Source: Calothrix brevissima NIES-22
GTDB lineage: Bacteria > Cyanobacteriota > Cyanobacteriia > Cyanobacteriales > Nostocaceae
NCBI RefSeq assembly: GCF_002367995.1
Contig: NZ_AP018207.1
Coordinates: 1,488,001 to 1,552,000 of the forward strand
Reading direction: 5' to 3'
Length of the DNA: 64,000 nucleotides
In this document: positions 15,770 to 29,537 of the stretch, one piece after another
How positions within the stretch are numbered: position 1 is the first letter of the stretch
Layout: each line of letters begins with the position of its first letter
Notes under the pieces: model-generated
The model's database searches: none
The model's input: only the letters and a program-made list of their open reading frames with translations
What the model was told of the DNA's origin: nothing
Made by a program: the position numbers and the translations under genes

Positions 15770-16690
15770 TTAAGGATTATATTCAAATTCACTGGTGGAA
15801 CGAACGCCAATCCAATCACCGGGTGGGGTTTGTCCGACTTCGTAGGTGTAACCCAGATCCCAAAAACTGATATTGTAGAGAGTGCGATCGCTTAAACACT
15901 GGTTCATAAATTGGCTGAGTTTGCGGCTATTGTCAGCATCGCTAGCATACTCAACTGTTGGCTTTTCTATTACTACCATTGCTGCGGCTTGTAATGCAAG
16001 TTCAATTGCAGATATTTTAGTTTTAGCGTATGCACCTAAAAGGTGATGTTCATAAGTATAGTTATATCCGCCATGATAGTAGCCGTAAATGGTAATTGGC
16101 GTGAGATGATCGAGGAATGATTGGACTTCGGTTATTAAACTTTCATCCGCTAAACTTGCTGATTTTTCACGGACAATTTTCGTTGTGGGTGGGTTTGTTT
16201 TACGGCGATTATAGCTGACTTGATCGGGAACGGTAGGCGCAAGACATAACCAGTTATTATTATTAGTTTCAGCTACTAATATTGATACAGAAAAATCAGG
16301 GTGTTCCCATTCAAAATTTTGATGGTTTGATTTGGGGATAGATAAACTATAAGCTTGCAAATTTTGACAATTGTTAGTGATAAGGTGCTGAATTTTTTGA
16401 TAATATTCTTGGCGTTCAGCAGCAATGGTTTGATTCCAGTTATTGTTTTTGCGTTCGGAACGAGTAGGAGCATATTCATAGTCAAATACTTGTTGATTTG
16501 TAGGCGTTCCCCATTCCTCAATGTTTTGCCAATGTTCAAAAGCGAGTTCTATGTCGGTTAGGTTGACAAATCTTTGAGAAATCATTAAATTCCATAGGTT
16601 AAATTCTCCTTGGTAGATAGTTTCCCAAATAAAAGCATTAGAACAGAGGATTTCTAATGTACCGAGCAATTTTTCTGTTTCAGCTTGCAT
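15770..16690 (-). CDS. Doubled NuiA-like protein A
   Basis: 306 residues, no signal peptide. I read it as two NuiA (nuclease A inhibitor)-like halves. The first half has FNLWNLMI, VNLTDIELAFEHWQNI, a helix near 120-150 and SILVAETNNNNWLCL. The second has a G/Y-rich insertion (TIYGYYHGGYNYTYEH), a helix with SRKLSQFMNQCL, and the C-terminal strand YTYEVGQTPPGDWIGV (281-296). Anabaena NuiA ends in a comparable Y.xG..T..G.WAG strand. It is the last gene of the minus-strand group and starts 30 bp after its paralogue. Homology to NuiA is my own reading by eye; nuclease inhibition is inference. Confidence 0.6.
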   Translation of the reverse strand: MQAETEKLLGTLEILCSNAFIWETIYQGEFNLWNLMISQRFVNLTDIELAFEHWQNIEEWGTPTNQQVFDYEYAPTRSERKNNNWNQTIAAERQEYYQKIQHLITNNCQNLQAYSLSIPKSNHQNFEWEHPDFSVSILVAETNNNNWLCLAPTVPDQVSYNRRKTNPPTTKIVREKSASLADESLITEVQSFLDHLTPITIYGYYHGGYNYTYEHHLLGAYAKTKISAIELALQAAAMVVIEKPTVEYASDADNSRKLSQFMNQCLSDRTLYNISFWDLGYTYEVGQTPPGDWIGVRSTSEFEYNP

Positions 16691-16720
16691 AGTGATTTGG
16701 CGTAATTGTAATATTTAAAA

Positions 16721-17659
16721 CTATGGATTATACACAAATTCGCTTTCTATGTATAAACCAGCCCAATCGCCTCCTGAAGTTTCGCCAATGATGTAGATAT
16801 TCTCCTGAGTCCAAAAACTGAATCTATACATCATTACTTCTGCAAAAGTATGATGCAAAAATTTGTTTAATTTATCGTATTTTGCATATTTTGCCTCTAA
16901 ATTGTTAGCCCACCTTGGCAAGTATTCTTTCTCAGAAAAAAACTTATGAAATATGCCAATTTCTAACATTCCCGAAGCTTGTAGAGCCTGTGCCATTGCT
17001 GCTTCTTTTGTCTCAGCTGCACCATAGACGATTTGATAATCGTAATTATAGTAATATCCACCACCAATATCTCCTGCTAAATGAATGGTTCCCATGTCTG
17101 ATGTAATGGCTTGAAGTTGTGAGACTATATTTAGTGTATTTTCTCTTAATGCTTGAGCAGAGATATGATGAATCACGGGAGAACGAGAAAGTTGTTCTTG
17201 TGGAATTTTAGTTTCTTTATAAAGGGTATGAAAAACAGCAATCCAATTTCCATCTGTAGTTTTACCAACAATCAAACCAACTAAATCGTCATCTGGGAAG
17301 TACGAGGAAGTTTTAACATTAAAAGATTCTAAGTCTTGTAAATTCTGAATTAGTAATTGAGATAATATTTCTATTTTACTAGCCCAAGCAGTTTTTTCAT
17401 TTAAATTTAAAGAAAAGCTATTAAAATTACTTGCATAATCCATTGTCTGCCAATTTTTAATTGTGGCATCAATATCTGTAAGTTTTAACCAGCCTTTCTC
17501 AAGGCTGAGATTAAGTATATTAAATTCACCATTTTGGGATAACTCCCAAACAAAAGGAGAAATAGATCCACCAGATTCATGCCCAGGTAAATTAAAGCCT
17601 GATTGAGGCTCGATGATAACTTGTAGTGTTGCTAGAATTTGCTCTGTTTTTGGTTGCAT
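16721..17659 (-). CDS. Doubled NuiA-like protein B
   Basis: 312 residues, paralogue of the flanking proteins. Half one: SPFVWELSQNGEFNILNL, WLKLTDIDATIKNWQ, helix KIEILSQLLIQNLQDLESF and strand VGLIVGKTTDGNWIAVFHT (127-145). Half two: TIHLAGDIGGGYYYNYDY, helix KYDKLNKFLHHTFAEVMMY and strand IYIIGETSGGDWAGLYIES (288-306). The helix-then-strand end of each half matches the NuiA pattern (KLLEVIKSNL, then YVIGETPAGNLAG). Located downstream of the 1334-residue LRV gene; a 27-codon frame lies between them. No catalytic motif seen, so a binding or inhibitor role is more likely than an enzyme. Confidence 0.6.
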   Translation of the reverse strand: MQPKTEQILATLQVIIEPQSGFNLPGHESGGSISPFVWELSQNGEFNILNLSLEKGWLKLTDIDATIKNWQTMDYASNFNSFSLNLNEKTAWASKIEILSQLLIQNLQDLESFNVKTSSYFPDDDLVGLIVGKTTDGNWIAVFHTLYKETKIPQEQLSRSPVIHHISAQALRENTLNIVSQLQAITSDMGTIHLAGDIGGGYYYNYDYQIVYGAAETKEAAMAQALQASGMLEIGIFHKFFSEKEYLPRWANNLEAKYAKYDKLNKFLHHTFAEVMMYRFSFWTQENIYIIGETSGGDWAGLYIESEFVYNP

Positions 17660-17670
17660 AATTTCAGAGA

Positions 17671-17754
17671 TTATATGAATAAATTACGCTTTTCATCAAT
17701 TACAAGTTGAAAAGCTTCTCGAACTTTAGCAAGTGTAAAATCACTGTATGGCAT
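17671..17754 (-). pseudogene. 27-codon remnant in the LRV/NuiA operon
   Basis: Reads MPYSDFTLAKVREAFQLVID followed by EKRNLFI and stop. It has GAGG about 10 nt before its ATG and sits between the LRV gene (25 bp upstream) and NuiA-like protein B (11 bp downstream). The opening resembles the first residues of a cyanobacterial uncharacterised family that starts MPYSDFTL-like and is normally about 200 residues, so I call it a truncated remnant. It could instead be a real short translated leader. The other cassette has only 13 bp at the corresponding junction. Confidence 0.4.
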
Positions 17755-17779
17755 CTGCAACATCCTCAATTATTCACAA

Positions 17780-20700
17780 CTAAACTTTAGCTGCTACACG
17801 AACAATGCGATTACTATCTTGCGCAAGTTGTTGGCGTAATTCTGCTGGGGTTGCGGGGTTATCTGCAACTGCGTAGCGTTCTAGCCAAGATTGAGATTGT
17901 GCTGCTTGTGTTAATATTTCTGGGGGAGTTAGGGGATGGAGTAGAGTTACTAAGCGAACAAAGGCGTTTTCGGAATTCGCATATTCTACAAGTATGGTTG
18001 AAATGTCATCGCTGCTGGGGTTGTAAATGCGGCTGATTCCGCGCAAGGTAGTGCTGACACTTTGTTGATTGTTGGGTTGAAAAACTAAATCGCGGAGAGT
18101 TTGTTTAATAGTCGCAGGGGTATAAGGATGAAGTGCAACAGCACGACGAATTTCGATTTTTTCATCAGTTGCTAGTTGTGTCAGGATTGTTTCTGGTGAA
18201 TGCGGATTATAAGCAATGGCTACACGAACAAATGCTTCTTCATCTTGTGCTAATTGTTCTAAAATCTGTACAGGTAAATTCTGATGATTCGCAACATTTG
18301 CACGGACAACTTGATCTGCATCTTTGGCTAATATTTCCAGAATATTCACAGGAGTATTTGAGTTAGCAGCAACTAACTGACGTACTTTAACTTCTGCATG
18401 GTTAGCAAGCTGTAGCCAAATTTCTGGTGTAATGTGGGGATGATTGGCGATCGCACTACAAATATTAGCATTAGAATTCTGCGCCAGTCTGGTTAAAAAT
18501 TCAGCGCTGAGGCTATGATTGCGCGCTAGGGTAGTTAACACAGACTCATTTGACATCGCCATGAGTCTTTCAACAATTGTTGGTGTTAGATTTGCTTGCG
18601 CTGCTATTCGCAGATAAACCTGTTGTAGGTTACTTTCCATCAAGAATTCTAACAGGTTGGGGGGAAGTTCCCGGCGATCGCAAATTGCATGACAAATTTG
18701 TTCGTAGTCTTGATTTTTTGTATCTGTAAACCTTAATAGCAGTCTTTCGAGGAATTGGGGGGGAGTGTCAGCACGACGCGCGATCGCCCACAAAACGGGG
18801 CTATAATCATCATTAATTAAGGGTTCTAAGGCAAAAATCGGGGTATTGGGATGATCCGCTACAGCCGAACGAATCCATGATGTCTTGTAGTTAGCTAATT
18901 TTACCAATATCTCTGCTGGCATTTCGGAATTTCGCGGCTTGAGTAATTCATCTAAAGCTTTATCTCGAAATCGGAAGTCCATTTTTAAAGTATTTTCTAC
19001 AGCTTTTGCTAAAGCTTTAGCAGGTGTTTTCCCATTCCAAGGATTAACAACGCCTTTCTCTACCCCCAAAAATTCTAAAATATCCACAGGTGTATTTGGG
19101 TTACGCGCCAATGCTTCCCACACTTCTTTATTAGAGTCATTAGCCAGCTTTCTCAATAATTCCTCTGGAGTGTCAGTATTAGCAGCAACCTGCGCTCTAA
19201 TTTGTGCTGATTCATCATTAGCTAAATGTTGCAGTACTTCTACAGCAGTTGGTTTATGCAGTCGCTTCCTAGCTAAACCTGCGCGAACATTTAAACTAGA
19301 GTCTTGTGTCAACTCTAATAAATTGCTGAGTGGTAAATTAGCATTTTCTGAGACTACAGAACGTACAGTTTCATCTGCGTCTTTGGCGAGTTGTTGTAAT
19401 ACTTGAATTGGCGTTTTATGACTACGTGCGGCGGTAATTTTGGCATTGCGATCGCCTTTTTCTAAAACCTGCGCTAAAGCATAAGGACTATCAACACGAC
19501 GCGCCATTAATTGATGCGCTTCCATAATTTCTTGTTCTTCTTCCATCACTAATAATATCCGATGGCGTTCTCTTGCAGGCAAATGAGGATTTTTGATGAT
19601 ATTACCTCGAATATTGGCAACATTATTAATTGTCTTTTCTACAGGTTGTTTAGCAAGTTGCAGCAAAATATTAATCGGCGTACCGGGATTTTCAGCTACC
19701 CAATTTCGCGTAGTGCTATTAGCATCTTGAGCTAATTCTGCTAATGCATTAGCAGGTGCATTGGGATTGCGAGAAACTTCTTGACGAACGCCACCAGGAC
19801 GAGTCATTAATTGGTTTATAATTTCTGGTGGAGTATTGGGATTTCTGGCAATTGTTTCTGGAATATCGTTCCAATTTGTTGAGAGAAGTTGCTGAAAATA
19901 CTCTTTGCGTTCGGCTTCGGGAACTTGAGGATTATAAGCTAAAGCCATCCGCATATCGCAATCATTTTCGTAAGAATTTAATTTTTCTAAAGGACGAGTG
20001 AGTTGCTTTTGCAATTTTTCTCGTAAAGGTACTGGTAGACTAGGATTACCTACTAAGGCTACAGCAACAGTGCGATCGTCTTTTACCACATCTACCAGCG
20101 TGTCAGGAATTTCTAATATATTAGCGATCATTTTTTGTCGTTCTGACTCTGATATAGTTGGCAGAAATTGTTTCCATTCCTCGTTTACCTGTTCGTAAAA
20201 ACTTTTATCTTGGCGGTATCTTCCTTGTAAATCGCCAACATAAGTATAATTTTCTAGTAATGTTGTCCATTGATAACTTTCAATTAAATTAAACCATTCC
20301 TCAACATCAATTGATATTTGATATGGAGCGAGAATTTTTCTGATTGCATCCATACAGAAATCAGCTACAGATTCTCTATTATCTGCTTCTGGATTTCTAG
20401 TTAAAAGGCGGCGGAGTTTGAAGCGGAATTTATTTTGAGGTGATTCCTGTTCAACTATTTGTTCTAAAATCGCCACAGGTGTTTGGGAATCTGCGGCGAT
20501 TAGCTTGAGAACATCCCTTTCTCCGGCTTTGACTAACTCCTCTAGTAACTCAATTTTTTTCGCTGGATCAATCAGAGAATTTTGGGCAACTGCTAGCTTA
20601 ATATATGGATGGGGATATTGAATTAAATGTTCTAAAATTCCTAGGGAAACTTGGGGATGTTTGGCAACATCAACCAAAAACCTCATATCATCTCTAATCC

Positions 20701-21784
20701 ATTGCTCAAAAACTTCTGGTAATGGTAGATGCGTATGCTTTGCTCGTTTCGCTACTCTTAAAGCTTCTAAATCAACATTCGCTAATTCAGCTAAAATCCA
20801 TGTAGGTGTATGCGGTTGTTGTAAAAATAAATAATTATCTCTTACCCCTTCATTAAATAATCTTTCTAAAATACTAGTCGGTAAATTTTCTCTTCTTTTT
20901 AAAAGTTGCTGCTGAGTGGGAAATAATTGATGTAATATCTCTGCCGTTGCATTTCGATGTTCGGCTACAGTTGCTTGGATTGTTTGATTTTGATGTTGCG
21001 CTAATACAGCTAACACATCTGCGGGTGTTTCTGGATTCTTCGCCACTGATAACTGGATTTTATATACCCTATCTCCAGCCAACTGCATTAAAGTTTCTGC
21101 TGTCGCTGAGGGATTTTGTGCCACCGCCAAGCGAATCCAAGCCCAACGGCTTTGTGCTAACATTGCTAATTGTTCTGCATCGGTATTCCAATCAGATGCA
21201 ATGGTGTATTGTCCTTCCACTAATTCAATTAATGATGGGGGACAATTGGGGTTAAACTTTACTGCTAATCTAATAGGTAATTCTAAATCCCCTGCTAGTT
21301 GTTCTAATACTGCTAAGGGTGTTTCTGGTGATTCTGCAACTTGTAAGCGTGGTTCTAAAGTCGGTTCCTGCGCCAAGCGTTCGAGTAATTGTAAGCGATA
21401 TTTTAACGGTATATGGGGATTACGCAACGCTGGAATGAGCTTTTCTGCGGGAACCCATTCGCTGAAAAAGCATGGCGGTACAGTTCCCAATTTGAGCAAT
21501 TCTACAGCTAATCGGTCATTTTGCCCTAGTTCCTGTTGTTGCAGTATTTCATCTACCGCTTTTTGCCAATTTTCTGTGATTTCTCCCGCATAATTTACGT
21601 GCACCCTGGCGGCTTGTGATACTTGTTTGTCAGTGCTATTAACGAGAACTTCTAAGAGCGATCGCGGTGTTTCAATGTAGTTTGCAAAAGCTAATTGCAA
21701 TTCCACAGGCTGCTGTAATAACTGTTCTGGTGTATCTAAAAATGCTTGTAAATCGGCGGCGCTAACTGGCTGAAGAGGTTGCAT
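17780..21784 (-). CDS. Giant LRV (leucine-rich repeat variant) protein 1
   Basis: 1334 residues from the ATG at 21784; an upstream TTG at 21799 would add five. Most of the length is ~26-residue units of the form VR..VA.N..TP...L..LA.D, as in the LRV family first described from Azotobacter. Good examples are VRQLVAANSNTPVNILEILA, VRANVANHQNLPVQILEQLA and VRVAIAYNPHSPETILTQLA. The protein should fold as a long right-handed alpha/3-10 superhelix, a binding scaffold. No catalytic domain, signal peptide, membrane segment or Cys cluster is visible (the Azotobacter LRV protein has an Fe-S cluster; this one lacks the Cys). N-terminal ~220 and C-terminal ~150 residues are nearly the same as in LRV protein 2; the centre differs. 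Confidence 0.85.
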   Translation of the reverse strand: MQPLQPVSAADLQAFLDTPEQLLQQPVELQLAFANYIETPRSLLEVLVNSTDKQVSQAARVHVNYAGEITENWQKAVDEILQQQELGQNDRLAVELLKLGTVPPCFFSEWVPAEKLIPALRNPHIPLKYRLQLLERLAQEPTLEPRLQVAESPETPLAVLEQLAGDLELPIRLAVKFNPNCPPSLIELVEGQYTIASDWNTDAEQLAMLAQSRWAWIRLAVAQNPSATAETLMQLAGDRVYKIQLSVAKNPETPADVLAVLAQHQNQTIQATVAEHRNATAEILHQLFPTQQQLLKRRENLPTSILERLFNEGVRDNYLFLQQPHTPTWILAELANVDLEALRVAKRAKHTHLPLPEVFEQWIRDDMRFLVDVAKHPQVSLGILEHLIQYPHPYIKLAVAQNSLIDPAKKIELLEELVKAGERDVLKLIAADSQTPVAILEQIVEQESPQNKFRFKLRRLLTRNPEADNRESVADFCMDAIRKILAPYQISIDVEEWFNLIESYQWTTLLENYTYVGDLQGRYRQDKSFYEQVNEEWKQFLPTISESERQKMIANILEIPDTLVDVVKDDRTVAVALVGNPSLPVPLREKLQKQLTRPLEKLNSYENDCDMRMALAYNPQVPEAERKEYFQQLLSTNWNDIPETIARNPNTPPEIINQLMTRPGGVRQEVSRNPNAPANALAELAQDANSTTRNWVAENPGTPINILLQLAKQPVEKTINNVANIRGNIIKNPHLPARERHRILLVMEEEQEIMEAHQLMARRVDSPYALAQVLEKGDRNAKITAARSHKTPIQVLQQLAKDADETVRSVVSENANLPLSNLLELTQDSSLNVRAGLARKRLHKPTAVEVLQHLANDESAQIRAQVAANTDTPEELLRKLANDSNKEVWEALARNPNTPVDILEFLGVEKGVVNPWNGKTPAKALAKAVENTLKMDFRFRDKALDELLKPRNSEMPAEILVKLANYKTSWIRSAVADHPNTPIFALEPLINDDYSPVLWAIARRADTPPQFLERLLLRFTDTKNQDYEQICHAICDRRELPPNLLEFLMESNLQQVYLRIAAQANLTPTIVERLMAMSNESVLTTLARNHSLSAEFLTRLAQNSNANICSAIANHPHITPEIWLQLANHAEVKVRQLVAANSNTPVNILEILAKDADQVVRANVANHQNLPVQILEQLAQDEEAFVRVAIAYNPHSPETILTQLATDEKIEIRRAVALHPYTPATIKQTLRDLVFQPNNQQSVSTTLRGISRIYNPSSDDISTILVEYANSENAFVRLVTLLHPLTPPEILTQAAQSQSWLERYAVADNPATPAELRQQLAQDSNRIVRVAAKV

Positions 21785-21800
21785 GATAATCACACCCAAC

Positions 21801-21895
21801 GCAATAGTACATATATACTATAAAAATGACTGTAGTTTACCTACAGTCACAGTTTTTATTCCTATCTTCATAATTCCCAAAATTATCGTCTCAGG
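21801..21895 (-). promoter_or_regulatory. Conserved upstream block of LRV gene 1
   Basis: Shared with the region upstream of LRV gene 2 (26613-26700). Common elements on the plus strand are GTAC-ATAT-ATAC (21807-21818; GTAC-TTTT-GTAC in copy 2), TATAAAAATGACTGTAG, and ATTCCTATCTTCATAATTCCC. An 8-bp-arm hairpin, GACTGTAG-TTTAC-CTACAGTC, lies at about 21827-21847; in copy 2 the loop is inverted and the stem imperfect. On the minus strand TATAGT could be a -10 box. It lies 17 bp upstream of the start here. The role as promoter or operator is inferred from conservation. Confidence 0.4.
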
Positions 21896-21925
21896 AACAG
21901 AATTTAACTTCGCTGTAAAAATCAG

Positions 21926-22870
21926 TTAAGGATTAAAATCAAATTCACTTTCAATATAGATTCCTGCTATATCTTCTGCCTTTGTTGTTCCGAGAACATA
22001 TATACATTCACGGTTCCAAAAACTACATCTCAACATCTGAATATCAGAAAGTTTTTGAGTGAGAAATTGATTTATCTTGTCATATTGTGGGTAAAATTCA
22101 GCAATTTCATTTTCATCCCAATTCCCAGATAAAGCTTCTACGTCAAATTTGTGAAATTTACCAATATCAAGCATTCCTGCTTGTTGGAGAGCAATTAATA
22201 TTGCTTGTTCTCTAGAGTTGCTTATTGCTTGAACTAAATAATGTGGAAATCTATAATCATAGCCGCCACCATAGTAACCATAAATAGTAATTGGTTCTAA
22301 TGTATTGATGATTTGCTGAAATTTATCTTTCAATTTAGCCGTATTTCTATCCAAAGATGGCTGCATGGTTAAATCAGGTAAATTAGAATATTTGATTTCT
22401 CCTCGTAATTTAGTTTCTCTGGCAACAGTTTGAGAAAAACAAAACCAATTATTTTCTTGGTCTTGACCTAACACAACATAAAATGAATACATAGGAATGC
22501 GGCTAAATTTGAAAACCTCGATATTCTGAAGGTTTTCTGAAATAGCATCAGCTAATTCCTCATATATCTCTGCTCTTGCATCAGCTAATTCCGGAGCGAT
22601 AACATCTTCGTAGTCATCAGGATAATCATCTGGGTTTAAATAACCGCGCCGTTCTAATGCTTGCCAATTTTTGACAGCAACATCAATATCGGTGAGAGTT
22701 ATCCATTTGCGATCGCGTCCCAGATTGAGTAAACTAAAATCGCCTTTTTCCTGGATATCCCAAACGAAAGGTTCTAAAGAAGAATGGTGATTATAGTGCA
22801 GACGAAACTCAAGGCGTTTATCAATTAATACTTCAAGAGTACCTAAGATTTTTGCGGTTTCTAAGTTCAT
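21926..22870 (-). CDS. Doubled NuiA-like protein C
   Basis: 314 residues from the ATG at 22870; the frame is open to 22915 but that start would overlap the LRV gene, and MNLETAKILGTLEVLI aligns with the starts of paralogues A and B. Half one: EPFVWDIQEKGDFSLLNLG, WITLTDIDVAVKNWQAL, a long helix and SFYVVLGQDQENNWFCFS. Half two: TIYGYYGGGYDYRFPHY, QYDKINQFLTQKLSDIQML and IYVLGTTKAEDIAGIYIES. It follows LRV gene 2 after 13 bp, the tightest LRV-NuiA junction, implying co-translation and probably interaction of the two products. Confidence 0.6.
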   Translation of the reverse strand: MNLETAKILGTLEVLIDKRLEFRLHYNHHSSLEPFVWDIQEKGDFSLLNLGRDRKWITLTDIDVAVKNWQALERRGYLNPDDYPDDYEDVIAPELADARAEIYEELADAISENLQNIEVFKFSRIPMYSFYVVLGQDQENNWFCFSQTVARETKLRGEIKYSNLPDLTMQPSLDRNTAKLKDKFQQIINTLEPITIYGYYGGGYDYRFPHYLVQAISNSREQAILIALQQAGMLDIGKFHKFDVEALSGNWDENEIAEFYPQYDKINQFLTQKLSDIQMLRCSFWNRECIYVLGTTKAEDIAGIYIESEFDFNP

Positions 22871-22883
22871 ATTTATCTTTGAT

Positions 22884-25800
22884 TTATAAATTTGCGATCG
22901 CAACTGCTTTGACAATGCGATTACTATCGTGGGTTAGCTGCTGACGTAGTTCTTCTGGTGTTGCGGGGTTATCTGCAACTGCATAGCGTTCTAGCCAATA
23001 TTCAGATTGTGCTGCTTGTGTCAATACTTCTGGGGGAGTTTGCGGGTGGAGTAGAGTTACTAAGCGGACAAAGGCGTTTTCGGAAGTTGCATATTCTGCC
23101 AGTATGCTTGTTATATCATCGCTGCTGGGGTTGTAAATACGGCTAAGTCCGCGTAAGGTGGGATTAGTTTGTTGGGTGGTGGGTTGAAAAACTAAATCGC
23201 GCAGCGTTTGTTTAATAACCGCAGGGGTGTGAGGATTTTGAGCAACTGCACGGCGAACTTCAACTTTTTCATCAGTTGCTAATTGTGCCAAGATTGTTTC
23301 AGAAAGATGAGGATTACTAGCCGCAGCAGTTCTGACACTGGGGTTTTCGTCGCTGGCTAAAATTTCTAAAACAGGAATTGGTGTATTAGAGTTAGTCGCT
23401 ACTTGAATTTTTACCTCGCTTTGCTCATCCCGCGCCAATAATTCCAAAATGTTTACAGGTGCGTTGTTTGCAGCTGCAACTGCTTCCCGCACCGATATTG
23501 CTGTATCTTCAGCTAGGCACAACCATAAAGCCTCTGTTAAGTTGGGATGGCGAACTAAACAAACTCGCACCTCTATGCTAGGGTCATGAGTGAGAATGGC
23601 GAGCAGTTGTGGTGTTAAGCTGGGATTATATGCAAGCGATCGCACGATCTCATCATTCGTTGTTGCTGGAAGGAATGCTTCTGGATCTGGTGTTGCACCT
23701 AAAAACTCTCTTCTTGCCAAAATTTCTAATGCTTCAATGGGTGTGCGCGGATTTCCAGCTATGCAACGCAGCACATCATTATGATTACCAGGAAATGCAC
23801 TCTTGAGCATATCCACGGTTTGATTTGGGGTATTTCCTGAATTTTGGGTACTTTGAACGATTTGGGAAAGTGCGCGAGGCGGTGTATTTGGATTGCGTGC
23901 AACGTCCAATCGCGTTGTAAAATCTGAATGAGTGGCGAGTACTTCCAATGTTTCCGGGGATGTATTGGGATTACTAGCGACAGCGCGAACTGTAGCGACG
24001 TAAGCATCTCTCGCTAACTGTCTTAAAACTGTGGCTGGGGTGTTGGGGTGCGACGCGACGCGATAACGCACCGAACTATCGGTGTGAGTTGCTAACTGTG
24101 CCAAAGTTTCCGCCGGCATTTGCGAACCTTTGACAGGATGTTTAATAAAATCAGCGAGATTTTTCCCACTCATGCTTTTAACTGCTTGAGCAAGTACAAT
24201 TCCTGGTGTACTGGGATTGCGTTGATTTACGAGATTTTCTTCTAATCCCAAACGAGTCAGAATTGTTACGGGAGTGTTAGGGTTAGCAATTAGTTTGGTT
24301 TTGACTTCACGACTGGTATCGTTGGCTAACTGCACCAATATTTCTACTGGTGTATCGGGATGTTCTGCAACTTTGGCTCTGATTATTGGTGATTCATCCT
24401 GTGCCAATATTTCTAATAATTGAATAGGGGTAGGTATTTTACTATGTAATGGTTTATAGGCAAGATTTGAACGTACATGAACGCTTGGATCTTTGGCAAA
24501 TTCTAATAAGTTATTTAAAGGTAAATTGGCATTTTTAGAAACAGCTTGCCGGATGGCTTCATCTGCATCTTTTGCTAGTTGTTGTAATACTGGGATAGGG
24601 GTTTGATTGCTACGTGCGGCGGTAAGTTTAGAATTGCGATCGCCTTTTGCTAAAATCTGCGCTAAAGCATAAGGAGTACCAGTACGACGCGCCATTAATT
24701 TGTGAGCATTCTTAGTTTCTTCGGCTTTGGTTTCGGCTAAAAAAAGCTGATAAATTCCTAACTGTATTTGCCGATGTGCTTCTAAAATAGGCACATGAGG
24801 ATTTTGTAATGCATAATCTTTTACTTGTCGATCCTCATCTTCGGTAAGACGAATCAAAATTTCTCCAGGAGTTGAGAGATTCATCGCCACATAACGCCGA
24901 ATAATTGGATTTGATGATTGTGCTAACTTCTCTAACAAATGAGGTGGCGTTTTAGGATTTTTAGCTAATTGTTCTAATGTATTTTTTTCGCCATTATATT
25001 GAAACATTTCTTGCAGATAATGATTGCGTTCTGCTTCTGTAACTGCTGGGTTTAAAACTAGTGCCATACGACATTCCCAGTCTTCATCATGCCACTTCCT
25101 TCCTGGAGGATTGAGAAAATTTTGCTTTAAGCGTTCTCTAAGATATAGAGGAGTAGAAGAATTACTTAATAATGCGATTGTTACAGAGCAATCTTTTTTA
25201 GCAAAATATAATTCACTTTCACCTAGTAGTTCTAATAAAACTGCCGGTGTTTTTTCATATGCAGCTACTTCAGCACGGATTGAAATTTCTTCTAATGCTG
25301 CTAAATCTGTGAGTATTTCTTCGCGTAAAGAATCTGGCGTATTAGGATTGCGTGCTACCTCTAAGCGCACCAAATTATCTGCATGATTTGCTAATAGCTC
25401 TAATGTACTGACAAGACATTTGGGATTTTTCGCAATTCTTTTTTCCCATCCCGGTTGAATATTGATTAATTTAGCTAAAATTTCTCCAGTTATATTTGCT
25501 TGTTCATCAAGTGCGTAAATTAAGCCTTGACGAGTATCTACTAATTTTTCAATCACAATAGCTGGTAAATTAGTTCTTTGTGCAATTTCATTACTGAAAT
25601 TTGGTAAAAGTTGTAATAACAATTCTTCAGAAGAGTTACAATGTTTTGCCACAGCTTCACGCACTGCATGGTTGAAATGATTAACCAACAATGTCAACGC
25701 AGCTACAGGTGAGGAAGGATTACGCGCCACATCAAGATGAATTCTGGTAATAGAATCGCTAGCTAGTTTGACTAACACATCAGGCGGTGTATTCGGGTTT

Positions 25801-26468
25801 TGTGCTACAGCTTGACGAATCCAAGCCCAACGGCTTTGTGCTAACATTGCTAATTGTTCTGCATCGGTATTCCAGTCAGATGCAATAGCGTGTTGTCCTT
25901 CCACTAGTTCAATTAATGATGGTGGACAGTTGGGGTTAAACTTTACTGCTAACCTAATAGGTAACTCTAAGTCACCTGCTAACTGCTCTAATACTGCTAA
26001 CTGTGTTTCTGGGGATTCTGCAACTTGTAAGCTTGGTTCTAAAGTCGGTTCCTGCGCTAGACGTTCTAAGAGTTGCAAACAGTACTTTAACGGTATATGG
26101 GGATTACGCAACCCAGGTATTAGCTTTTCTGCGGGAACCCATTCGCTGAAAAAGCATGGCGGTACAGTTCCCAATTTGAGCAATTCTACAGCTAATCGGT
26201 CATTTTGCCCTAGTTCCTGTTGTTGCAGTATTTCATCTACCGCTTTTTGCCAATTTTCTGTGATTTCTCCGGCATAATTTACGTGTAAACTAGCGGCTTG
26301 TGATACTTGCCTATCAGTGCTATTAACTAGGATTTCTAAGAGCGATCGCGGTGTTTCAATGTAGTTAGCAAAAGCTAATTGCAATTCTGTTGGCTGCTGT
26401 AATAACTGTTCTGGTGTATCCAAAAATGCTTGTAAATCGGCGGCGCTAACTGGCTGAAGAGGTTGCAT
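22884..26468 (-). CDS. Giant LRV (leucine-rich repeat variant) protein 2
   Basis: 1194 residues from ATG 26468 (ATG 26474 is two codons earlier). Same architecture as LRV protein 1: N-terminal MQPLQPVSAADLQAFLDTPE, then tandem ~26-residue LRV units (for example VREAVAAANNAPVNILELLA, then VKIQVATNSNTPIPVLEILA). The C-terminal cap has TLRDLVFQPTTQQ and SRIYNPSSDDI. The central part has a different number and sequence of units from protein 1, while both ends are conserved at DNA level. It is expected to be a cytoplasmic scaffold. First gene of the minus-strand cluster; its conserved promoter block lies 145 bp upstream because about 120 bp of repeat DNA sits between. Confidence 0.85.
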   Translation of the reverse strand: MQPLQPVSAADLQAFLDTPEQLLQQPTELQLAFANYIETPRSLLEILVNSTDRQVSQAASLHVNYAGEITENWQKAVDEILQQQELGQNDRLAVELLKLGTVPPCFFSEWVPAEKLIPGLRNPHIPLKYCLQLLERLAQEPTLEPSLQVAESPETQLAVLEQLAGDLELPIRLAVKFNPNCPPSLIELVEGQHAIASDWNTDAEQLAMLAQSRWAWIRQAVAQNPNTPPDVLVKLASDSITRIHLDVARNPSSPVAALTLLVNHFNHAVREAVAKHCNSSEELLLQLLPNFSNEIAQRTNLPAIVIEKLVDTRQGLIYALDEQANITGEILAKLINIQPGWEKRIAKNPKCLVSTLELLANHADNLVRLEVARNPNTPDSLREEILTDLAALEEISIRAEVAAYEKTPAVLLELLGESELYFAKKDCSVTIALLSNSSTPLYLRERLKQNFLNPPGRKWHDEDWECRMALVLNPAVTEAERNHYLQEMFQYNGEKNTLEQLAKNPKTPPHLLEKLAQSSNPIIRRYVAMNLSTPGEILIRLTEDEDRQVKDYALQNPHVPILEAHRQIQLGIYQLFLAETKAEETKNAHKLMARRTGTPYALAQILAKGDRNSKLTAARSNQTPIPVLQQLAKDADEAIRQAVSKNANLPLNNLLEFAKDPSVHVRSNLAYKPLHSKIPTPIQLLEILAQDESPIIRAKVAEHPDTPVEILVQLANDTSREVKTKLIANPNTPVTILTRLGLEENLVNQRNPSTPGIVLAQAVKSMSGKNLADFIKHPVKGSQMPAETLAQLATHTDSSVRYRVASHPNTPATVLRQLARDAYVATVRAVASNPNTSPETLEVLATHSDFTTRLDVARNPNTPPRALSQIVQSTQNSGNTPNQTVDMLKSAFPGNHNDVLRCIAGNPRTPIEALEILARREFLGATPDPEAFLPATTNDEIVRSLAYNPSLTPQLLAILTHDPSIEVRVCLVRHPNLTEALWLCLAEDTAISVREAVAAANNAPVNILELLARDEQSEVKIQVATNSNTPIPVLEILASDENPSVRTAAASNPHLSETILAQLATDEKVEVRRAVAQNPHTPAVIKQTLRDLVFQPTTQQTNPTLRGLSRIYNPSSDDITSILAEYATSENAFVRLVTLLHPQTPPEVLTQAAQSEYWLERYAVADNPATPEELRQQLTHDSNRIVKAVAIANL

Positions 26469-26474
26469 CACCAT

Positions 26475-26837
26475 AAAACCTATTAAAAATTAAAAATTAA
26501 AAATTCAAAATTCAAAATTCAAAATTAAAGACATTTTCAGTCGGGGATTTAAACCCCAACTGAAAACCTACTACGTATAGACGCAGGGATCTTCAACCTT
26601 CGGAATTAGGACAACTTAGTACTTTTGTACCATAAAAATAACTGTAGGTAAACTATACTTAAAGTTTTTATGCCTATCTTCATAATTCCCAGAACTGTCA
26701 CATCAACAACAGAATTCGACTTTGGCATATTAAAGTTGCGATTTGAAAATCAACGCTGATTTTCTGAGGAGAAAATGGAAGAATGTAAAGGTTAACTGGC
26801 TCAGGAAAAGTCTCTCAAGAGAGTTGATGGTGTTGTT
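26475..26837. promoter_or_regulatory. Divergent control region between LRV gene 2 and the DhaM fusion
   Basis: 363 bp. From left: AAAAATT/TCAAAAT heptamers (26486-26527), a hairpin repeat TTTTCAGT-CGGGG...CCCC-AACTGAAAA (26534-26566), GTAC-TTTT-GTAC (26619-26630) and the block CATAAAAATAACTGTAG...GCCTATCTTCATAATTCCC (to about 26695) that also lies upstream of LRV gene 1. The heptamers and hairpin appear to have been inserted between promoter block and start. The right 140 bp should contain the promoter of the rightward gene; no clear boxes found. Confidence 0.45.
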
Positions 26838-29318
26838 GTGATTGGAATAGTCATTGTTTCTCACAGTAAACAACTCGCGCTTGGTGTACAGGAACTAGCA
26901 GCGCAAATGGTTCAGGGTAAAGTCCCGTTAGCGATCGCAGCTGGAATTGACGATCCAGATAATCCTTTGGGTACAGATCCCATGCAAGTTTATCAGGCGA
27001 TCGCTTCTATCTTCAATGATGATGGTGTATTAGTCTTAATGGATTTGGGTAGCGCTGTGATGAGTGCAGAAATGGCGCTAGATTTCCTTAACCCACAACA
27101 ACGGGAAAAAGTCCATTTATGTGCAGCACCACTGGTTGAAGGTGCGATCGCAGCTGTAGTCGCCGCCGCCGCAGGTCATAATATTCAACAAGCGATCGCT
27201 GAAGCACAGTCAGCTTTAGTAGCAAAACATACTTTGCTCGGCATAGATAGCAGTTCTGCATCGGTTATTGCTACAGCTCACGCAGAATCGCCTAGCAAAG
27301 AAATTCGCCTCACAGTTAACAATCGCTTGGGTTTACACGCCCGTCCAGCCGCGCAATTTGTCACCACCGCCGCCCAATTTCAAGCGCAAATTAAGGTAAG
27401 GAATGTTACAAGGGGGACAGATGCCGTGAGGGGTGACAGTATCAATCAAGTCGCAACTTTAGGAGTACGTCAAGGACATGAATTAGTAATTACGGCTACT
27501 GGTATCGATGCTGATGCTGCCTTAGCCGCCTTAGAAGTATTAATTAATAATAACTTTGGCGAAGATAATAGTACATTTGCGCCGCCAGTGGTTGAGTCAA
27601 CAGAAGTTAGCCCTGCTTCTGCTGGCGAACTCTCGGGAATTCCGGCTTCACCAGGAGTTGCGATCGCGCCTGTAGTCCATTATCAACTACCTGCCATCAC
27701 TGCTACACAATATCACGTAGATGATGCAGAATCAGAGTGGCAAAGATTACAAATAGCCATTGCTACCGCTCAACAGCAAATTCAGACATTATTTTCTCAA
27801 GCTTCCCTGCAAATTGGCGATACAGAAGCGGCGATTTTTGTCGCCCATCTTTTATTTTTAGAAGATCCGGTACTTTTAGAAGCGGTAAGGGCGAGAATTT
27901 ATGATCATCATCTCAACGCCGAAGCCGCTTGGCAAGCTGTTGTTGATGAAGTCGCTTCTAGCTACCATCAACTAGAAGATGCTTATTTACAGGAACGAGT
28001 CGAGGATGTGGTTGATGTCGGACAAAGAGTATTGCGTTTACTCACCGGCGCATCAGCCAGTGCTTTAGAATTGACAGAACCAGCGATTTTAGTCGCCAGC
28101 GATTTAACACCCTCAGACACCATTGGCTTAGATCCCAGCAAAGTATTAGGAATTTGTACCACATCTGGTAGTGCCACATCTCACAGTGCAATTATTGCCC
28201 GGACATTAGGGATTCCGGCGGTTTTGGGCGTAGATGCAGGCATATTATATCTGGAAGATGGCACAATTATGGCCCTTGATGGCGGCAGTGGTAAAGCCTG
28301 GGTAGAGCCAGAAGCAGATATTTTGAGTATATTAGAAGCGAAGCGAGAAGCTTGGCAAACTGCACAACAGGAAGCGCTAGCCAAAGCACATCAACCAGCA
28401 ATTACGCGCGATGGTAAGCAAGTCAGTGTCTTTGCTAACATCGGTAGCATAGCTGATGTTCAAGTGGCTTTAGCTAGCGGTGCTGAAGGAGTAGGACTAC
28501 TGCGTACAGAGTTCCTGTATTTAGGTAGGACAAGTGCTCCCACGGAAGAGGAGCAATTAGCAGTATACCAAGCGATCGCCCAAGTTTTAGATCAACAGCC
28601 ATTAATTATTCGGACTTTAGATGTTGGTGGGGATAAACCGCTACCTTATATTCAAGGCGTACCGGAGACAAACCCCTTTTTAGGTTGTCGGGGAATTCGC
28701 TTTTGTTTAGAACATCCCGACATATTGACAACTCAATTACGGGCGATTTTACGAGCTAGTACAGGACACAATATTAAAATTATGCTGCCGATGATTGCCA
28801 GTATCACCGAAGTTAGGGCAGCTAAGGAAATTTTAAATGAAGTGCAACGGGAACTCAGACAAGCAGCGATTCCCTTTGATGCCAACATTCAACTAGGTAT
28901 CATGATTGAAGTCCCCGCAGCTGTAGCGATCGCGGATCAGTTAGCAGCTGAGGTAGACTTTTTTAGTATCGGCACCAACGACTTAAGTCAGTATGTCATG
29001 GCAGGCGATCGCAATAACCCCCGCGTTGCTAATTTAACTGATGCATTACACCCCCCAGTCTTGCGCATGATTCAACGCACAGTGAAAGTTGCTCATGACG
29101 CCGGAATTTGGGTAGGATTATGTGGTGAACTTGCAGCCGAAACCGCCGCCACAGCGATTTTATTGGGATTAGGATTAGATGAATTAAGCGTTAATCCCCA
29201 AGCCATCCCCATTTTAAAACAAGCGATCGCCCAATTAAGTATAAGTCAGAGTCAGGCGATCGCCGCTTCCGCATTACAACTAGATTCCGCCGAACAAGTC
29301 AGACAACTTACGGCTTAA
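26838..29318 (+). CDS. dhaM: DhaM-type fusion: EIIA(Man)-HPr-Enzyme I phosphotransferase
   Basis: 826 residues from GTG 26838, the only start that keeps the family opening IGIVIVSHSKQLA. Domains: EIIA-Man/DhaM 1-130 with phosphorylatable His9; HPr 152-240 with His167 in NNRLGLHARPAAQF; Enzyme I 262-826 with His449 in TSGSATSHSAIIARTLGIP, the PEP-binding RTEFLYLGR, and GIMIEVPAAVAIA and SIGTNDLSQYVMAGDR. It should relay phosphate from PEP through EI and HPr to the DhaM domain, the donor for dihydroxyacetone kinase DhaK/DhaL. Neither dhaK nor dhaL is next to it (a divergent LRV gene on one side, 939 bp of repeats on the other). Cyanobacteria lack sugar PTS permeases, so a metabolic or regulatory role is expected. 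Confidence 0.92.
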   Translation: MIGIVIVSHSKQLALGVQELAAQMVQGKVPLAIAAGIDDPDNPLGTDPMQVYQAIASIFNDDGVLVLMDLGSAVMSAEMALDFLNPQQREKVHLCAAPLVEGAIAAVVAAAAGHNIQQAIAEAQSALVAKHTLLGIDSSSASVIATAHAESPSKEIRLTVNNRLGLHARPAAQFVTTAAQFQAQIKVRNVTRGTDAVRGDSINQVATLGVRQGHELVITATGIDADAALAALEVLINNNFGEDNSTFAPPVVESTEVSPASAGELSGIPASPGVAIAPVVHYQLPAITATQYHVDDAESEWQRLQIAIATAQQQIQTLFSQASLQIGDTEAAIFVAHLLFLEDPVLLEAVRARIYDHHLNAEAAWQAVVDEVASSYHQLEDAYLQERVEDVVDVGQRVLRLLTGASASALELTEPAILVASDLTPSDTIGLDPSKVLGICTTSGSATSHSAIIARTLGIPAVLGVDAGILYLEDGTIMALDGGSGKAWVEPEADILSILEAKREAWQTAQQEALAKAHQPAITRDGKQVSVFANIGSIADVQVALASGAEGVGLLRTEFLYLGRTSAPTEEEQLAVYQAIAQVLDQQPLIIRTLDVGGDKPLPYIQGVPETNPFLGCRGIRFCLEHPDILTTQLRAILRASTGHNIKIMLPMIASITEVRAAKEILNEVQRELRQAAIPFDANIQLGIMIEVPAAVAIADQLAAEVDFFSIGTNDLSQYVMAGDRNNPRVANLTDALHPPVLRMIQRTVKVAHDAGIWVGLCGELAAETAATAILLGLGLDELSVNPQAIPILKQAIAQLSISQSQAIAASALQLDSAEQVRQLTA

Positions 29319-29397
29319 TTGTTGACGGTTGACGGTTGACGGTTGACGGTTGACTGTTGACGGTTGACGGTTGACTGTTGACGGTTGACGGTTGACT
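29319..29397. repeat. GTTGACG heptamer STRR
   Basis: About eleven tandem GTTGACG/GTTGACT units directly after the stop codon of the DhaM fusion gene. The same heptamer recurs near 58917-59028. Confidence 0.8.
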
Positions 29398-29537
29398 GAG
29401 ATAATTATGTCTTTCAGCAGAAGATTTGTAATTACATCTCTACACAAAGGTAGATTTTACCAATTTAAAACAATCATAAGACAGATGTACCTGTAGGGGC
29501 GGGGTTTCCCCACCCAAAGTCAAATTGAAATATAGCC

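Follow-up and report, generated by a model that had tools for sequence, protein, structure and literature searches.

NuiA of Anabaena (PF07924; PDB entries 2o3b and 1ktu) is reportedly a single-domain inhibitor of one nuclease. Concerning its fold, a review (PMC10189770) cites Kirby et al. 2002, whose title presents NuiA as a variation on the PR-1 fold. Arrays and fusions of inhibitor domains that stand without their toxins are described in another article as the polyimmunity loci and polyimmunity proteins of polymorphic toxin systems, and HEAT repeats are counted there among immunity proteins (PMC3482391). Here we analyze a locus of the cyanobacterium Calothrix brevissima NIES-22 where genes for proteins with two NuiA-like halves stand next to genes for giant LRV-repeat proteins. 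The whole stretch of DNA under study, hereafter the window, covers 64,000 nucleotides (positions 1,488,001-1,552,000 of NZ_AP018207.1, assembly GCF_002367995.1), and coordinates without prefix are window positions; numbers prefixed with L, G and C designate loci, genomes and contigs, respectively. Our literature searches, which left subscription journals mostly outside their reach, did not find this LRV/NuiA-like pairing described.

Five long open reading frames (ORFs), all with an ATG start, span positions 15770-26468 of the minus strand in the order LRV-2, C, LRV-1, B and A, separated by 13, 141, 120 and 30 nt (Table 1). This order had been read correctly in an earlier note on the same DNA, as had the relationship of A, B and C: their sequences align and their sizes (306-314 residues) agree with paralogues of about 310 residues.

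By profile comparison and structure prediction, proteins A, B and C are tandem double NuiA-fold proteins. PF07924 is matched by B at 46.3 bits and by C at 43.8 bits, each in two stretches, and by A at 20.7 bits, slightly below the gathering cut-off of 22.1 bits. A profile built from 32 rows of the family retrieved two NuiA sequences from the PDB (E-values of 7.6e-5 and 7.7e-5), the next match standing at 0.15. When the alignment was cut in two, using 29 of the 32 rows and excluding three odd ones, the N-half and C-half profiles matched each other with a probability of 95.0% (E-value 3.6e-8) over 130 columns. Compared with the single NuiA, the N-half reached 96.1% over 66 columns and the C-half 97.4% over 81 columns, against 0.2-0.4% for three column-shuffled C-halves used as controls. 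The AlphaFold model of protein C, which alone among the three was modeled, has a mean predicted local distance difference test score (pLDDT) of 88.5 and a predicted template modeling score (pTM) of 0.88; compared with the PDB, it places NuiA (2o3b_B) at rank 1 with an E-value of 6.6e-5 and a probability of 1.00, as the sole match below 1e-3. The NuiA-like look that the earlier note had perceived by eye in each half is found by Pfam, by profile comparison and, for protein C, by structural comparison.

The halves of A-C resemble NuiA in profile and fold, and both are small and acidic: the products of the LRV/NuiA-like genes have predicted isoelectric points of 4.65-5.47, and the true NuiA of this host 4.41. 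They differ from NuiA in carrying two folds per chain, where the NuiA family has a single domain of about 130 residues, in having an LRV solenoid as presumed partner and in lacking an adjoining NucA gene. B and C share 35-36% identity, and in a tree of 43 doubled-NuiA proteins the nine A-type rows form one clade (support 99/99) and 12 rows including B another (100/99), protein C sitting on a long branch with unsure placement. Judged by eye, A-C and the LRV products appear to be without signal peptide. Separately, four other NuiA-domain proteins (L145:2860-3351, L146:8197-8619, L147:8482-9045 and L148:2739-3212) have hydrophobic N-termini that look by eye like signal peptides, suggesting exported NuiA variants.

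The two giant proteins are, from their sequences and from a model of one of them, helical solenoids of LRV/HEAT-like repeats. PF01816 matches LRV-1 at 194.1 bits in 14 stretches and LRV-2 at 223 bits in 17 stretches, for a cut-off of 21.6 bits. The AlphaFold model of LRV-2 is helical from end to end (mean pLDDT 84.5), with a pTM of 0.54 that makes its overall curve uncertain, and its top matches in a Foldseek search are CAND1, PP2A-A and karyopherins. The Azotobacter vinelandii 4Fe-4S LRV protein, which we take to carry an N-terminal 4Fe-4S cysteine cluster and to be about one fifth as long as LRV-1 or LRV-2, has in common with them the many LRV/HEAT-like repeats of PF01816 and an all-helical solenoid. 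LRV-1 and LRV-2 differ from it by their linkage to doubled NuiA and by the lack of any CxxC motif, both sequences having been scanned, and assignment to the 4Fe-4S type was rejected on this ground. A phage origin was also rejected: only the two LRV proteins match PHROGs, at 38-39 bits and to one family of unknown function.

The pairing of LRV and NuiA-like genes is firmly conserved. A pattern scan with the LRV family over 84,980 species, taking one genome per species and possibly omitting records near the genome of the window, returned 24 loci, all of them cyanobacterial. Four (L083, L098, L103 and L104) meet a contig edge 1-69 bases past the LRV match. The remaining 20 extend more than 1 kb after LRV, and in 19 of them a NuiA-like gene follows next downstream on the same strand, in some cases with a further gene, X, in between. 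Measured on the longest ORFs, the spacing in these 19 loci ranges from an overlap of 116 nt to a distance of 956 nt, the overlaps reflecting in part the choice of start. The NuiA-like gene is split into two frames in L082 and L093, and the single exception among the 20 loci, L101, has a truncated LRV gene. A second survey, which is not independent of the first since several records are common to both, covered 291 genomes of the order to which the window belongs. LRV matches at or below 1e-20 occur in 24 of these genomes; in 12 of the 24, including that of the window, the match covers the N-terminal region at more than 100 bits, and a doubled-NuiA match adjoins LRV in all 12. In G139 this match is broken; G150 has its LRV gene split over two contigs, the N-terminal part lying on a separate one. 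The adjacency has been encountered in at least 11 cyanobacterial families, within and beyond the Nostocales, and the expectation that it would be kept among relatives is therefore borne out.

A parallel arrangement involves an unrelated type of solenoid. Three genomes (G278, G144 and G090) encode single chains where a pentapeptide-repeat solenoid is followed by two NuiA stretches, with NuiA scores of 115.1, 66.9 and 71.8 bits and pentapeptide scores of 268.1, 219 and 176.3 bits, respectively. These fusions resemble the Calothrix locus in combining a repeat solenoid with two NuiA domains; they differ from it by the kind of solenoid and by uniting in one polypeptide what is here distributed over two genes. 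Because a second, unrelated solenoid has been joined to doubled NuiA, they are the best independent support, by analogy, for the notion that solenoid and doubled NuiA constitute a working unit.

The LRV genes themselves are, as far as sequence comparison tells, mosaics of conserved ends and exchanged middles. The near-identity of their ends had been proposed earlier and holds for the N-terminus, where LRV-1 and LRV-2 share 94-95% of their amino acids over residues 1-160 (synonymous difference 0.21-0.24) and 82% over residues 161-240; the C-terminus is less alike, with 81% over LRV-1 residues 1225-1305. The middles range from 26 to 64% amino acid identity with synonymous differences of 0.41-0.86. 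The window and three relatives, L081, L088 and L091, which share an EI-type flanking gene, carry differing LRV complements at this one locus. L091 has the same flank together with LRV-1, B and A (DNA identity of 95.2% across 6112 bp, 15771-21882), its LRV lying in two frames, and has neither a second LRV gene nor C. L081 carries a single LRV gene with a DNA identity of 92.7% to LRV-2 (3578 aligned bases), and then X, B and A. The single LRV gene of L088 resembles LRV-1 in its early part and LRV-2 in its later part: its residues 241-401 are 81 and 72% identical to LRV-1 as against 35 and 31% to LRV-2, while across LRV-2 residues 641-1194 its identity to LRV-2 amounts to 81-96%, and that to LRV-1 to 22-88% in windows from residue 762 onward. 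A simple recent duplication is ruled out by the divergent LRV middles, by the identity of only about 35% between B and C, and by the occurrence of LRV-1, B and A alone in L091; of the duplicated cassette described in the earlier note, the presence of two units stands and their origin by plain duplication does not. Between LRV-2 and the LRV gene of L081, the synonymous difference is 2% over residues 241-560, compared with 8-19% over residues 1-240 and 15-40% over residues 641-1194, which points to a recent exchange of the segment 241-560. Across 21 cassettes the LRV ends are best conserved (mean identities of 0.57 and 0.55, against 0.39-0.45 for inner segments), and the two LRV genes of L100 are 69-80% identical over their first 240 aligned residues and 32-51% in the middle. 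Conserved ends and swapped middles together imply that the unit evolves by exchanging solenoid segments between conserved ends.

Table 1. Coordinates of the features of the Calothrix brevissima locus (window positions) and of the pentapeptide/NuiA-NuiA fusions
Feature	Position	Strand	Description and basis
LRV-2	22884..26468	-	1194-aa predicted alpha-solenoid repeat protein; PF01816 and AlphaFold model
Protein C	21926..22870	-	314 aa; two predicted tandem NuiA-fold halves; PF07924 and model
LRV-1	17780..21784	-	1334-aa predicted alpha-solenoid repeat protein; PF01816; orthologous DNA in L091
Gene X remnant between LRV-1 and B	17677..17769	-	31 codons; tblastn, 93.5% identity to X residues 1-31
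Protein B	16721..17659	-	312 aa; two predicted tandem NuiA-fold halves; PF07924, two stretches
Protein A	15770..16690	-	306 aa; paralogous to B and C; lacks the N-half loop
Conserved block upstream of LRV-1	21805..21904	-	79% identity to 26617-26716 (blastn of the region against itself)
Conserved block upstream of LRV-2	26617..26716	-	about 150 nt before the LRV-2 start
Candidate terminator in the 141-nt gap between C and LRV-1	21826..21850	-	hairpin and T-run; hairpin/T-run scan
Pentapeptide/NuiA-NuiA fusion proteins	L134:6452-8443, L135:8375-10396, L136:6541-8307		Pfam domains

The conserved DNA reported upstream of the LRV genes does exist and amounts to one block of 100 bp at 79% identity; ahead of LRV-2 the block stands about 150 nt from the start because of an insert (26485-26610) that contains a hairpin and T-rich repeats. 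Part of this insert (26495-26598) matches L091:1884-1988 at 89.5%. The hairpin and T-run in the gap between C and LRV-1 raise the possibility that LRV-2/C and LRV-1/B/A may be two transcription units; overall, the scan was not above chance, with 10 such sites in the region versus 8.8 (standard deviation 3.0) in shuffled sequences. Short tandem repeats with a period of about 7 bp, as judged from blastn offsets, were observed at the end of the EI-type gene (29310-29398).

The LRV and NuiA-like products probably form one assembly, as gene order, short gaps and the analogous fusion suggest. We propose that a recombining unit is present here in two copies, each made of a giant LRV solenoid gene followed by genes for one to three doubled-NuiA proteins, whose products would together make a cytosolic capture/inhibitor module. 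At its conserved ends, with which the NuiA partner varies more closely than with the inner segments (correlations below), the solenoid would hold the doubled-NuiA partner; its exchangeable middle would select the foreign or own protein to be held, and the NuiA folds would cap or block that protein. The unit might then be an orphan immunity module akin to polyimmunity loci and aimed at nuclease-type toxins. We tentatively regard this as the best explanation, while giving it less than an even chance. Acidic isoelectric points, inhibitor folds in tandem, decaying copies and a patchy occurrence all agree with an immunity role against delivered toxins, and such a role would be in line with polyimmunity as published. 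With polyimmunity as portrayed there, the locus shares tandem paralogous inhibitor-like domains (within one chain and as the tandem genes B and A), repeat solenoids and a content that varies among relatives. It differs in that the LRV/NuiA pairing is fixed and conserved, not a changing mixture, and immunity would be assigned here by analogy.

Several observations weigh against this explanation. The template modeling score (TM-score) of the protein C model over its NuiA target 2o3b_B is only 0.42, and the TM-scores over LRV-2 are at most 0.18 among the 50 Foldseek matches listed. Among the doubled-NuiA rows above 100 bits outside the genome of the window in the survey of the order, 12 of the 21 adjoin LRV and nine have no LRV found alongside, one of the latter (G208:C43) having a contig edge fewer than 500 bases away on the expected LRV side. 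In recent LRV pairs the overall ratio of nonsynonymous to synonymous substitution (dN/dS) is 0.21-0.30, which indicates no general positive selection. Two 80-codon windows above 1 (1.37 for LRV-2 residues 481-560 compared with L081, and 1.42 for LRV-1 residues 1132-1211 compared with L091) were dropped as a sign of positive selection for having very few synonymous changes. In 21 cassettes the distances between NuiA partners follow those between LRV ends (rho 0.51 and 0.46) more than those between inner LRV segments (0.33, 0.39 and 0.26), G152 being represented by its second NuiA-like gene, as the first is a partial match only. This favors the proposed role of the ends but is no more than suggestive of co-evolution, because the values are confounded by shared ancestry and every LRV segment shows some correlation with the partner. 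The analysis identified neither a toxin nor a target. Pfam, with which four flanking genes of the window were also scanned, found no toxin domain in the five proteins, although X, present in relatives, might be a toxin gene; and the consulted part of the polyimmunity article does not name NuiA (PMC3482391). PADLOC gave no match for the five proteins, and membership in a known defence system was rejected accordingly.

Part of this evidence would suit a different reading, somewhat unlikely in our estimate, where the NuiA-like proteins would accompany a solenoid scaffold in some routine cellular task such as assembly, chaperoning or signaling, the fold being reused and nothing being inhibited. 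The low dN/dS values agree with it, and so do the presumed contact residues of NuiA, which are only partly kept (see below), the eukaryotic scaffold solenoids that head the Foldseek results of LRV-2, and the neighbors of orphan doubled-NuiA genes, which follow, for instance, psaA/psaB or a Clp ATPase gene and share no theme. The distribution argues the other way: 24 loci in 84,980 species and 24 of 291 genomes of the order make a patchy presence unlike that of housekeeping genes, broken copies are found in L082, L086, L091, L093, L095 and L101, and the LRV middles are mosaic. In two genomes, genes for proteins of 556-561 and 512 residues were observed upstream of an orphan doubled-NuiA gene (L053:1785-5154 and L055:5629-8996), the first of which, in L053, matches an ABC-2 membrane domain weakly and below threshold.

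A role in conflict or self-recognition, as the earlier note had suggested, may gain indirect support from the mosaic LRV alleles and the patchy distribution. A broader reading, which we consider unlikely, is that of a new recognition-and-inhibition system combining cassette-swapped solenoid middles with paired or fused doubled NuiA and, sometimes, an effector X, and serving kin recognition or defence. An outright conflict or defence system with an effector, where LRV would sense, X would cut nucleic acid and doubled NuiA would restrain X, the effector having decayed in the window, appears less probable still. X is a family of 211 residues. Its gene separates LRV from the NuiA-like gene in L081, L088, L082 and L086, in two frames in the last, and stands upstream of LRV in L095. 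Both the window and L091 retain 31 codons of it between LRV-1 and B, and L050 holds an X fragment with a broken NuiA-like match. The genome of the window contains seven further X relatives, one of which directly precedes another LRV gene (L060). Inspected by eye, the rows of X display an EAK motif preceded by a D, or in one row by an E, resembling PD-(D/E)XK nucleases, and loss of the toxin with retention of the inhibitor is the direction expected under this scenario. These features make an association of X with the LRV/NuiA-like pair suggestive, in a minority of loci. Against a restrained effector, tblastn found no X in 18 of the 24 named loci, the other six relatives in the same genome (198-215 residues) are distant from every LRV or NuiA-like gene found, and L082 has X open while its NuiA-like gene is split. 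X has no match in Pfam or NCBIfam and only chance-level matches in the PDB, so that its nuclease fold is a judgment by eye. The L060 region (L060:5276-18693; C1 of the same genome, G000, approximately 6976275-6989692) is in itself an array of proteins of about 800-840 residues, at least two with TPS secretion domains, interrupted by the X relative and an LRV protein of 824 residues.

The earlier note had also suggested control of a nuclease, which is weakened if the nuclease meant is NucA. According to this explanation, the doubled-NuiA proteins would inhibit NucA-type nucleases (Endonuclease_NS, PF01223) with LRV as delivery or regulatory partner, and we judge it very unlikely. Homology to NuiA naturally favors it, and some of the residues by which NuiA contacts NucA, which we take to be the metal-bridging Glu24, the DW motif and the C-terminal Thr, are partly kept in A-C according to alignment. 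At the presumed Glu24 position, in an ungapped alignment anchored on FxW, B has Glu, C has Asn and A has lost the loop; the profile alignment stops short of this loop in the LRV-linked A, B and C rows. The Trp of the DW motif is aligned to a Trp in one half each of A, B and C. Most doubled-NuiA rows have YNP in place of the C-terminal VET of NuiA; the Glu is retained in fusion L134, whose C-terminus reads VET as in NuiA. Genome content speaks against NucA as the target. PF01223 has no match in the window and two in the genome, on contigs C5 and C2. On C5, a contig of 190 kb, the NucA-family gene (202.8 bits) adjoins the host's own true NuiA gene (184.7 bits), the two forming a convergent pair (G000:C5:10149-11217, L058); the C2 match (G000:C2:40521-41366) lies within an open frame of 10,482 residues. 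At 1e-5, PF01223 is matched in seven of the 12 LRV genomes, and no match was obtained in the other five (G152, G056, G186, G139 and G150, the last only 66% complete) nor in the fusion genome G278. It is possible that the doubled-NuiA proteins inhibit something other than NucA. Finally, the idea that the adjacency is a passive outcome of shared ancestry and local duplication without joint function, to which shared flanks such as the EI-type gene and the existence of orphan doubled-NuiA genes might lend themselves, is scarcely credible given an adjacency spread over so many families and the parallel pentapeptide fusions.

In these cyanobacteria, the NuiA fold is found doubled, multiplied and tied to giant scaffolds with exchangeable middles, including in hosts without a NucA-family match. 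Even if the module reading proved false, 'nuclease inhibitor' would be an unsafe name for doubled PF07924 proteins. If the capture/inhibitor module is real, cyanobacteria would own a mix-and-match device against nuclease-type or other foreign proteins, and the LRV/NuiA-like loci would supply ready alleles for testing it.

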